Origin: Cytophagaceae bacterium
GTDB lineage: Bacteria; Bacteroidota; Bacteroidia; Cytophagales; Spirosomataceae
Length of the DNA: 64,000 nt
Assembly (NCBI GenBank): GCA_027491315.1
Contig: JAIXWL010000004.1
Coordinates: 62,001 to 126,000 of the forward strand
Direction: 5' to 3'
Shown: in pieces, positions 17,972-57,836 of the stretch
Position numbering within the stretch: the first letter of the stretch is position 1
How the letters are laid out: every line of letters starts with the position of its first letter
Notes under the pieces: model-generated
Seen by the model: only the letters and a program-made list of their open reading frames with translations
The model's database searches: none
What the model was told of the DNA's origin: nothing
Position numbers and translations under genes: made by a program

Positions 17972-18676
17972 ATGAAAAAATTTATCTTAACCTGCTCTTT
18001 AGTAGCGATGGGGATAGCCGCATTCGCACAGAAGGCTAATACATTGACTAACAAAGAGAAGAAAGAAGGTTATCAGTTATTATTTGATGGTACAACGTTA
18101 AAAGGATGGCATGGCTACAATAAACCAGGTACCGTAGGTGCTTCATGGACAGTTAGTAATGGCGAGATAGGATTTGATGTAAGTAAAAAAGATGGAGGGG
18201 ATTTAACAACGGATGAGGAATTTGAAAATTATGATTTTTCGGTGGATTGGAAGATTTCGCCCAAGGGTAATAGTGGTATTATTTTCAATGTCACAGAAGA
18301 TCCAAAATACCGTAGTTCCTATAATACAGGTCCTGAAATGCAGGTTTTGGATAGCGACGGCCATCCAGATGGGAAGATATTCAATCACCGTGCAGGGGAT
18401 TTATATGATTTAATTCATTCTTCGGTTGAAACCGCTAAACCAGTAGGTGAATGGAATACAGCACGCATTGTGAATAACCGCGGTTTATTGCAATTATTCC
18501 TTAATGGAGCGAAAGTGGTAGAAACGCGTTATGACGATGAGAACTGGAAAAAGATGATTGCAGGATCTAAGTTTAAAAATATGCCAGGTTTTGGTGTGAA
18601 CATGAAAGGTCGTATTTGTTTGCAAGATCATGGTAACCCAGTTTGGTATAGAAATATCAAGATTAAGAAATTGTAG
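17972..18676 (+). CDS. Exported DUF1080 (3-keto-disaccharide hydrolase-like) protein
   Basis: A 234-residue protein with a signal peptide (MKKFILTCSLVAMGIAAFAQ). The rest is one DUF1080 domain, a concanavalin-like jelly roll: GYQLLFDGTTLKGWHGY opens the domain, then FDVSKKDGGDLTTDEEFENY, and the end NPVWYRNIKIKKL is highly characteristic. Members of this family cleave 3-keto-glycosides, and most stay uncharacterised. The first ATG of the frame is at 17963; I prefer 17972 because MKK begins a standard signal peptide. It is monocistronic with a strong terminator. A weak -7-like box (TAGTATTG) lies at 17938-17945. Confidence 0.93.
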   Translation: MKKFILTCSLVAMGIAAFAQKANTLTNKEKKEGYQLLFDGTTLKGWHGYNKPGTVGASWTVSNGEIGFDVSKKDGGDLTTDEEFENYDFSVDWKISPKGNSGIIFNVTEDPKYRSSYNTGPEMQVLDSDGHPDGKIFNHRAGDLYDLIHSSVETAKPVGEWNTARIVNNRGLLQLFLNGAKVVETRYDDENWKKMIAGSKFKNMPGFGVNMKGRICLQDHGNPVWYRNIKIKKL

Positions 18677-18694
18677 TTAATATTGATGGATGCT

Positions 18695-18726
18695 AAAGGC
18701 CTGAGAGCGATCTCAGGCCTTTTTTT
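18695..18726 (+). terminator. Rho-independent terminator after the DUF1080 gene
   Basis: Perfect 12-bp stem (18695-18706 with 18711-18722), GCGA tetraloop, followed by a T run. Confidence 0.88.
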
Positions 18727-18787
18727 ATGGATTATCAGTTGATTGGATTTTAAAAGCTATGGAGTTTTATTGATTAAGCGCCAAGCA

Positions 18788-18805
18788 GCTATTCGACATG
18801 TTCTG
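18788..18805. repeat. Degenerate inverted fragment of the 82-bp repeat
   Basis: The stretch GCTATTCGACATGTTCTG matches the reverse complement of the right end of the repeat dyad (CAGAACATGTCGAACAGC) at 17 of 18 positions. It lies about 60 bp before the tandem array and in the opposite orientation, suggesting a remnant of an earlier copy. Confidence 0.5.
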
Positions 18806-18865
18806 AAAGGCATTTGGAATTGTTGATGAAAAGAATCTTCGATTCGCTATTATCCACGTGGAGGC

Positions 18866-19104
18866 TATAGGATGGGATTATAAATCCCTTTTATTTGTCG
18901 TTCGACATGGCCCTGCGGAACATGTCAAACAGCGGAGTTTAAATTATTATAGGATGGGATTATAAATCCCTTTTATTTGTCGTTCGACATGACCCTGCAG
19001 AACATGTCGAACAGCGGAGTTTAAATTATTATAGGATGGGATGATAAATCCCTTGTATTTGTCGTTCGACATGACCCTGCAGAACATGTCGAACAGCGGA
19101 GTTT
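18866..19104. repeat. Tandem 82-bp intergenic repeat, three copies, with two dyads per unit
   Basis: Units start at 18866, 18948 and 19030 with an exact 82-bp period; the third is cut at about 75 bp. Copies 1 and 2 differ at 3 positions and copies 2 and 3 at 2. Each unit holds a small dyad GGGATT-ATA-AATCCC (disturbed in copy 3) and a larger one with 10-bp arms GTTCGACATG and CATGTCGAAC separated by 11 nt (18982-18991/19003-19012 in copy 2, 19064-19073/19085-19094 in copy 3; one mismatch in copy 1). It fills most of the roughly 500-bp gap between the DUF1080 gene and the next gene. It looks like a REP/MITE-like element rather than CRISPR, as there are no variable spacers. Confidence 0.9.
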
Positions 19105-19175
19105 TCTTGCTCTATCGCAAGTTTTCTTCTCCTTAATTTCTTCAATTTTAGGAATTCAAAAATGATCCATTTGGG

Positions 19176-20063
19176 ATGAAGATATACAACTTAAGAACAT
19201 ACCTGATGTTTGTTGTTTTACTCTTGACCAGCCTAAGGTCTCATGCACAGAATCATCCAATCCAAATACTTAGTCAGGCCGATAGTTCTGTTGTTTCTTT
19301 TGCCTCTATATTATTTGAAAGTAGGAAGCAAGGTTTTCATAGCGATGAGCAGGGAAGGTTTACCTTACCCATACAACAAGCTGTAGATACCATCAAGATT
19401 CGGTCTATTGGTTTTCAGGATACTTTGGTAATTGTAGATAAATCGAAAGTCAAGGGGGAATTATTGATTTATTTACCAGTTAAATCTATCATTTTACCAG
19501 AGTTTCGAGTTTTGTCTATTAATAAACCTTATACAAGCAAGAAACCTAAAAAAACAGGGTCGTTACAACAATGGGGAGGGGTAGGGTCTCAATATGGATT
19601 ACTTTTGAATGATGAGAAATTGATAGGTCGTAAAATGCTCAAGGCTCATTTTTATTTGGCACATGGGGGAAATCCAAGATATCCATTTCGGATCAGGATA
19701 TATTCCATCAAACAGGGTAAGCCAGATCAAGAGTTAAGCCATGAAAGTATCATTGTTCGAGCCACCCAGCAGGGCTGGAACGAATTTGATATTAGCCAAT
19801 ATGATATTTACGTTCCAGAAGGAGGATGCCTTTTAGCGATGGAGTGGCTAAATTTTGAATATGTTGTATCCGCTGAATTAATTCTCACAAAAGGTAAATA
19901 CCCGGGTCAAGTTCTTGGAATGGGGGATTTTGGGAACCAATATTTGGGTTTTGTGAAGGATGATTTTAGTAACTGGCATTTTAATGGAGATTATCTTCCC
20001 AGATACCAGTTACCTGATAAAAGTAAATTTTTGAATCCCATGATACGTTTGACGGTGCAATAA
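19176..20063 (+). CDS. Exported protein with CarboxypepD_reg-like N-terminal domain
   Basis: A 295-residue protein with a signal peptide (hydrophobic residues ~9-22, then SHAQ). Residues ~27-105 form a carboxypeptidase regulatory-like beta-sandwich: ILSQADSSVVSFASILFES, HSDEQGRFTLP and TIKIRSIGFQDTLV give the GxFxL-type pattern of that fold, common at the N-terminus of Bacteroidota outer-membrane proteins. The C-terminal ~170 residues contain no motif I can name; they are beta-rich with many aromatics (RYPFRIRIYSIKQGKP). No TonB plug or barrel follows, so it is not a receptor. Possibly a surface or periplasmic binding protein. It sits directly after the 82-bp repeat array and before a bidirectional terminator. 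Confidence 0.75.
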   Translation: MKIYNLRTYLMFVVLLLTSLRSHAQNHPIQILSQADSSVVSFASILFESRKQGFHSDEQGRFTLPIQQAVDTIKIRSIGFQDTLVIVDKSKVKGELLIYLPVKSIILPEFRVLSINKPYTSKKPKKTGSLQQWGGVGSQYGLLLNDEKLIGRKMLKAHFYLAHGGNPRYPFRIRIYSIKQGKPDQELSHESIIVRATQQGWNEFDISQYDIYVPEGGCLLAMEWLNFEYVVSAELILTKGKYPGQVLGMGDFGNQYLGFVKDDFSNWHFNGDYLPRYQLPDKSKFLNPMIRLTVQ

Positions 20064-57695: not shown

Positions 57696-57745
57696 ATGGG
57701 TAACAGGTTAAGATGGTAAAGATACAAGGATATTATTTATTAGGG

Positions 57746-57836
57746 TTTAGTTATTAGTTATTAGGGATGAGTTTTTAGTGATTTCGGCATGGCAGGTATC
57801 TCTAATCACTAATAACTAATCACTATTAACTAATCA
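57746..57836. repeat. AT-rich dyad repeat between engB and hemE
   Basis: Short TTAGTTATTAG-type units face AATCACTAATAACTAAT-type units. The clearest pair is TTAGTGATT (57775-57783) with AATCACTAA (57804-57812), and ATTAGTTATTA (57753-57763) is the reverse complement of 57810-57820. The two arms contain shared sub-repeats, so several pairings are possible. Confidence 0.55.

Follow-up and report, generated by a model that had tools for sequence, protein, structure and literature searches.

The window, i.e. the whole 64,000-nucleotide stretch of DNA that was analysed (G000:C2:62001-126000 in the coordinates of our analysis), belongs to a Bacteroidota genome of 2.92 Mb in 17 contigs. Between a gene for a 3-keto-disaccharide hydrolase, which ends at 18676, and another that starts at 19176 and gives a weak CarboxypepD_reg-like match, it contains a tandem array that Tandem Repeats Finder (TRF) delimits at 18866-19104 with a period of 82, 2.9 copies, 96% matches and no indels, in agreement with the initial annotation, which reported three units of exact 82-bp period in a gene-free stretch. 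A repeat search places the copies at 18866-18947, 18948-19029 and 19030-19111, the third of which diverges past 19104. The intergenic region comprises the following features:

18695-18722, plus strand: intrinsic terminator belonging to the gene upstream (conserved across five genomes; terminator scan)
18761-18785, plus strand: left copy of an imperfect flanking repeat, GGAGTTTTATTGATTAAGCGCCAAG (score 24)
about 18788-18845, minus strand: second-type unit, inverted, with a partly decayed large hairpin and the small dyad GAATCTTCGATTC at 18833-18845 (BLAST)
18853-18862, no strand: palindrome TCCACGTGGA between the inverted unit and copy 1 (sequence)
18866-19104, plus strand: tandem array, 2.9 x 82-bp period, i.e. 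a 60-nt element and a 22-nt array-specific linker (TRF, repeat search)
18874-18933, plus strand: core double-hairpin element, copy 1 (covariance model match G000:C2:80874-80933, flank alignment, fold)
18956-19015, plus strand: core double-hairpin element, copy 2, both hairpins intact (covariance model, fold z -4.1)
19038-19097, plus strand: core double-hairpin element, copy 3, small hairpin with one mismatch (covariance model, fold z -3.6)
19098-19121, plus strand: right copy of the imperfect flanking repeat, GGAGTTTTCTTGCTCTATCGCAAG (edge comparison with the empty site)

Both of the dyads initially described are found in every unit. The core of copy 1 consists of the GGGATT/AATCCC small hairpin, a spacer, the GTTCGACATG..CATGTCAAAC large hairpin and the AGC end; TCAAAC breaks one pair of the large dyad here and, as had been noted, in this copy only, while a T-to-G change breaks one pair of the small dyad in copy 3. 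Compared to shuffled sequences, single-strand folding is favoured in copy 2 (z = -4.1) and copy 3 (-3.6), and more weakly in copy 1 (-1.7). The loops of copies 2 and 3 both contain a derived GCAG, at the position where copy 1 has the GCGG common in the family, which suggests that copy 3 probably arose from copy 2 or vice versa, and which lends partial support to the proposal that these two copies are younger. The 10-bp palindrome annotated at 18853-18862 is present (TCCACGTGGA); it exhibits no sign of conservation and is absent from the matched relatives according to BLAST. A BLAST search of the array against plasmids and phages returned no match. Elsewhere in the window, at 57731-57836, there are two short AT-rich tandem arrays with periods of 21 bp and 14 bp.

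The piece near 18788-18805 that had been described as a reversed, degenerate remnant of the dyad is indeed inverted, but it is part of a complete second-type unit (about 18788-18845) rather than an 18-bp scrap. This unit matches loci L106, L080, L095, L098 and L091 of four relatives (G017, G020, G024 and G033), with up to 91% identity over 69 nt, and in these genomes it forms inverted pairs of about 165 bp with a shorter unit type, four such pairs standing in tandem in G033:C31. In the window this second-type unit makes up such an inverted pair together with the first array unit, and it is the right-hand partner of this pair that has been multiplied. Between the same two genes, G024 and G033 have an intergenic space of only about 160 bp without the insert of about 320 bp, i.e. 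an empty site. Conversely, an inverted pair that is missing from the corresponding place in the window is found in both of them downstream of the next gene, and G005 and G017 possess different, decayed units in the intergenic space that corresponds to the array. The terminator at 18695-18722 predates the insert and is separate from it.

Both edges of the insert resemble a single 21-nt piece of the empty site in G024 and G033, and the score of 24 for the flanking repeat corresponds to p of about 2.5e-4 by shuffles and 8e-4 against random 30-mers of the window. This diverged repeat of 21-25 nt is a possible candidate for a target duplication, clear at one site; at the G024 and G033 composites a duplication was looked for and was not clear. 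Y1 transposition is not known to generate such duplications. Divergence at the orthologous C16 site was too great to allow a clean comparison with an empty site, and none was obtained by searching around the C2:371266 site.

The position of the array downstream of a gene and the terminator-like GGGATTATAAATCCC-TTTT that the terminator scan detects in its units could indicate that the units act at the RNA level, as weak terminators or 3'-end stabilisers, with the small dyad and TTTT terminating transcription and the array reinforcing this effect between co-directional genes. However, a strong conserved terminator already lies at 18695-18722, the array is absent from the syntenic relatives G024 and G033, and units elsewhere occur on both strands and in inverted orientation around a transposase gene (see below). 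The Rfam scan of the window gave no match at the gathering score, leaving the structured-RNA and binding-site readings of the initial annotation without positive support. We regard it as quite improbable that the units are RNA-level elements of this sort, and a structured-RNA or binding-site role may be a secondary function of the array units.

The dispersed 60-nt element

Alignment of the copies together with their flanks reveals a shared element of about 60 nt, composed of a small hairpin, a spacer of about 12 nt, a large hairpin of about 10 bp, and AGC: GGGATTACAAATCCC, a spacer ending in TGTC or TATC, GTTCGACATG-11 nt-CATGTCGAAC, and AGC, directly after which there is a sharp right boundary. 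The search of this genome and its relatives that had been proposed at the outset was carried out with BLAST and then with a covariance model; 15 copies were found in the source genome, five further genomes of the genus have 36, 19, 10, 9 and 3, and 32 of the 38 genus genomes have none; the unit is thus present in 6 of 38. Every copy checked outside the window stands between ORFs, and units are found on both strands. Copy numbers are low. Units lie within the first 250 bases of contigs G005:C32, G005:C53, G000:C7 and G020:C32; these repeats probably break the assemblies, so that the actual number of copies may exceed the count. At L026:4983-5190 (G000:C16) a unit is adjoined by another dispersed repeat, about 200 bp long, of which the five relatives searched contain dozens of copies; at several G005 sites this repeat comes after the unit as though attached to it.

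In the alignment of 46 units, 92.7% of the cells of the two hairpins are paired, compared to at most 47.6% with the partner slid; the structure was read off the same 46 sequences, which biases this percentage in its favour. The double changes are independent of that, and 21 cells are changed on both sides, as compared to 6.3 in shuffles. The compensatory signal resides in the small dyad, whose third pair has changed from GC to AU in 10 units; the large hairpin hardly varies except at its foot and for that reason shows little compensatory change (one pair). A unit occurring nowhere else, with no covariation in its dyads and no transcript, was initially considered the mark of a chance local duplication; the unit found here is dispersed and its dyads covary.

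Head-to-tail arrays are common among units of this kind. Each array has linkers of its own between the tandem copies, and the periods observed are 80, 82, 86 and 106; since the arrays at other sites depart from that of the window in linker and in period (80, 86 and 106), we rejected the idea of a fixed 82-bp mobile unit. Since the linkers are private to each array, the 82-bp period reflects local amplification of the element together with its linker: judged from the aligned copies, the length of 82 bp is array-specific and the mobile element itself is about 60 nt. The private linkers, which make the period a local event, would also suit an ordinary local tandem duplication, similar sequences elsewhere being passive remnants spread by recombination. 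However, the dispersed copies, the sharp boundary after AGC, the empty site, the covariation and the systematic flanking of transposase genes require a defined dispersing element, and a purely local duplication, largely refuted by the dispersed family, must be considered very unlikely.

RAYT genes and their flanking arms

On contig C1 of the source genome, inverted units flank an ORF of 175 aa, which belongs to the REP-associated tyrosine transposases (RAYTs): it scores 120.8 bits against the curated NCBIfam profile REP_Tyr_transpos (NF047646; cut-off 80), matches Pfam Y1_Tnp, and contains the HUH and Tyr motifs, whose residues H60, H62 and Y137 are invariant in 15 homologues. The best Foldseek match of its AlphaFold model (pLDDT 84.9) is 4er8 (E 1.2e-9), the solved complex of a RAYT with a REP hairpin. 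The arrangement is the same at each of the four intact RAYTs of the genus: upstream there is an inverted unit, and downstream, 14-55 nt beyond the match end, a direct one, the inverted arms being 61-64 nt long and 89-95% complementary. The genus RAYT resides at one orthologous locus, which fits the view of RAYTs as domesticated, vertically inherited genes (PMC8049555).

The RAYTs of G017 and G020 are internally deleted relics, and no RAYT was found in G005, though it bears units. An intact RAYT is present in three of the six unit-bearing genomes and in none of the 32 others (p about 0.002, hand calculation), although the six may represent one clade, so that this co-occurrence would not be independent evidence. 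One G033 copy (L056:1501-2022) has the HUH motif NHNH, not the NHIH seen in the neighbouring second copy of that genome. In the RAYT locus L025:8481-9808 (G000:C1) the units form a mosaic with copies of a second hairpin family, GTTGGCTGAGGCTCTCGAAGCCAAC, as they do in G024 and G033, and within the C1 locus a ParD/ParE toxin-antitoxin pair lies between unit clusters (L025:8730-9303).

The association extends beyond the genus. A scan of GTDB genomes yielded 80 related RAYT loci across Bacteroidota, which together with the four genus loci provided 83 testable cases, and inverted flanking arms were found within 450 nt of the gene in 51 of the 83, compared to 3 of 164 mismatched controls. On inspection, many of these arms comprise a small proximal and a larger distal hairpin, with arm sequences that are unrelated to each other; an automated count of two-hairpin arms is weakly above the expectation (13 of 35 vs 7.2 in shuffles). 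Inspection of the arms thus suggests that the two-hairpin build is likely to be general among Bacteroidota RAYTs. The folding energies of the arms are low (median z -3.4), CAG or AGC stands at the outer end in 20 of the 35 non-redundant arms (4.1 expected), and additional copies of the RAYT arms are dispersed in the genomes of Pedobacter planticolens, whose RAYT is 66% identical to that of the genus, and Mucilaginibacter endophyticus.

One could argue that the units are miniature inverted-repeat elements moved by some other transposase, for which the RAYT locus is a mere insertion site, given that inverted pairs do occur (13 minus-plus neighbours) and that some unit-bearing genomes lack an intact RAYT. 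Such a coincidence, exceedingly unlikely in our opinion, would have to account for a single geometry at all four genus RAYTs, and for similarly built arms of unrelated sequence at 51 of 83 Bacteroidota RAYTs compared to 3 of 164 controls.

Proposed origin of the array and relationship to known repeats

We consider it highly probable that a non-autonomous repeat of the REP/RAYT kind was amplified locally to give the array. The suggestion in the initial annotation of a REP/MITE-like element multiplied in tandem is borne out by the dispersed copies, the inverted copies at the RAYT gene, the covariation of the dyads and the empty site. Points against it are the three unit-bearing genomes without an intact RAYT, the low copy numbers, the scarcity of compensatory change in the large hairpin, the lack of GTAG, and the possible target duplication, for which Y1 transposition is not known. 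The units probably transpose, and the array repeat is probably RAYT-dependent. Two inverted modules of about 60 nt would also serve as the ends that flank the RAYT gene at its one inherited locus, and the enzyme most likely recognised the module as a folded single strand, e.g. on the lagging-strand template. In E. coli and S. maltophilia, the TnpAREP proteins require the GTAG foot and cleave single-stranded REPs at CT dinucleotides adjacent to the hairpin (PMC8266576). GTAG is absent here; the RAYT of the genus would most likely cleave at the CT beside the large hairpin, where the complementary strand reads 5'-GCT-hairpin, which makes the GCT complementary to AGC a candidate cleavage or guide motif. 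An inverted module pair would then have been inserted as single-stranded DNA between the two genes, just downstream of the terminator, after which replication slippage or unequal recombination would have amplified the right-hand module head to tail together with its local linker, creating the 82-bp period. It is tantalizing to go further and suppose that Bacteroidota RAYTs of this type use an undescribed two-hairpin substrate, whose CAGC/GCTG outer end replaces the GTAG guide and fixes the cleavage, with a target duplication of about 20 nt, although we find this extension rather doubtful.

Among known systems, the element with its enzyme comes closest to subclass 2.6 of the TnpA_REP (RAYT) proteins of Bacteroidetes, to which the enzyme may belong and whose flanking repeats are called 'atypical secondary structures' in the accessible text of PMC6006769. 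The subclass as presented there agrees in its host phylum, the NH[LIV]H and WQ motifs, the C-terminal SS, the length of about 175 aa, and the presence of non-GTAG structured flanking repeats with copies elsewhere in the genome. It differs in the Tyr motif, YIH[QN]NP in the subclass and in most order-level homologues as opposed to YIHLNP in the genus, where it accompanies NHIH, WQ and SS. The two-hairpin anatomy and the end tag are not given in that text, and while the kind of repeat is known, this build, which recurs at many related transposase genes on either end, is apparently undescribed so far.

Other groups show resemblances as well. The four genus loci fit the TIRtron (TIRYT) pattern, with a RAYT-like gene bordered by long, partly self-complementary inverted repeats and a moderate repeat family, but here each inverted repeat comprises two hairpins and an AGC end, and head-to-tail arrays are common (PMC3733652). 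With canonical GTAG REPs, BIMEs and REPINs the units share short palindromes dispersed between genes, inverted pairs, and the flanking of a RAYT at one inherited locus, yet they contain two hairpins each and have TGTC/TATC on one strand and GCT on the other in place of GTAG/GTGG at the 5' hairpin foot; the tag led us to reject membership in this class. CGTC REPs were considered on account of TGTC, which stands ahead of the large hairpin in 29 of the 46 units, about half of the stems also starting with AT. CGTC REPs have a CGTC/TGTC tag, an 8-9-bp stem beginning with AT, a loop of 4-5 nt and a CCA tail, and are reported without a RAYT link (PMC3733652), in contrast to the 10-bp stem, the 11-nt loop, the AGC tail and the RAYT linkage observed here, and stem, loop and tail led us to reject this assignment as well. 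The ends of IS200/IS605 elements resemble the units in their subterminal hairpins and in the HUH Y1 fold of the enzyme, but our ends are inverted copies of each other and the gene remains at one inherited locus.

The biology of RAYTs is almost entirely founded on the GTAG-tagged REPs of Proteobacteria, and the Bacteroidota repeats have so far been termed atypical, with a description lacking in the accessible text of PMC6006769. The 60-nt module, its candidate end tag and the empty site provide a concrete substrate for tests of RAYT recognition and cutting, and allow one to ask whether a guide other than GTAG exists. Local tandem clusters of REPINs are known in E. coli (PMC8049555); head-to-tail arrays are reported to be rare or absent in most GTAG families, whereas they are common here.
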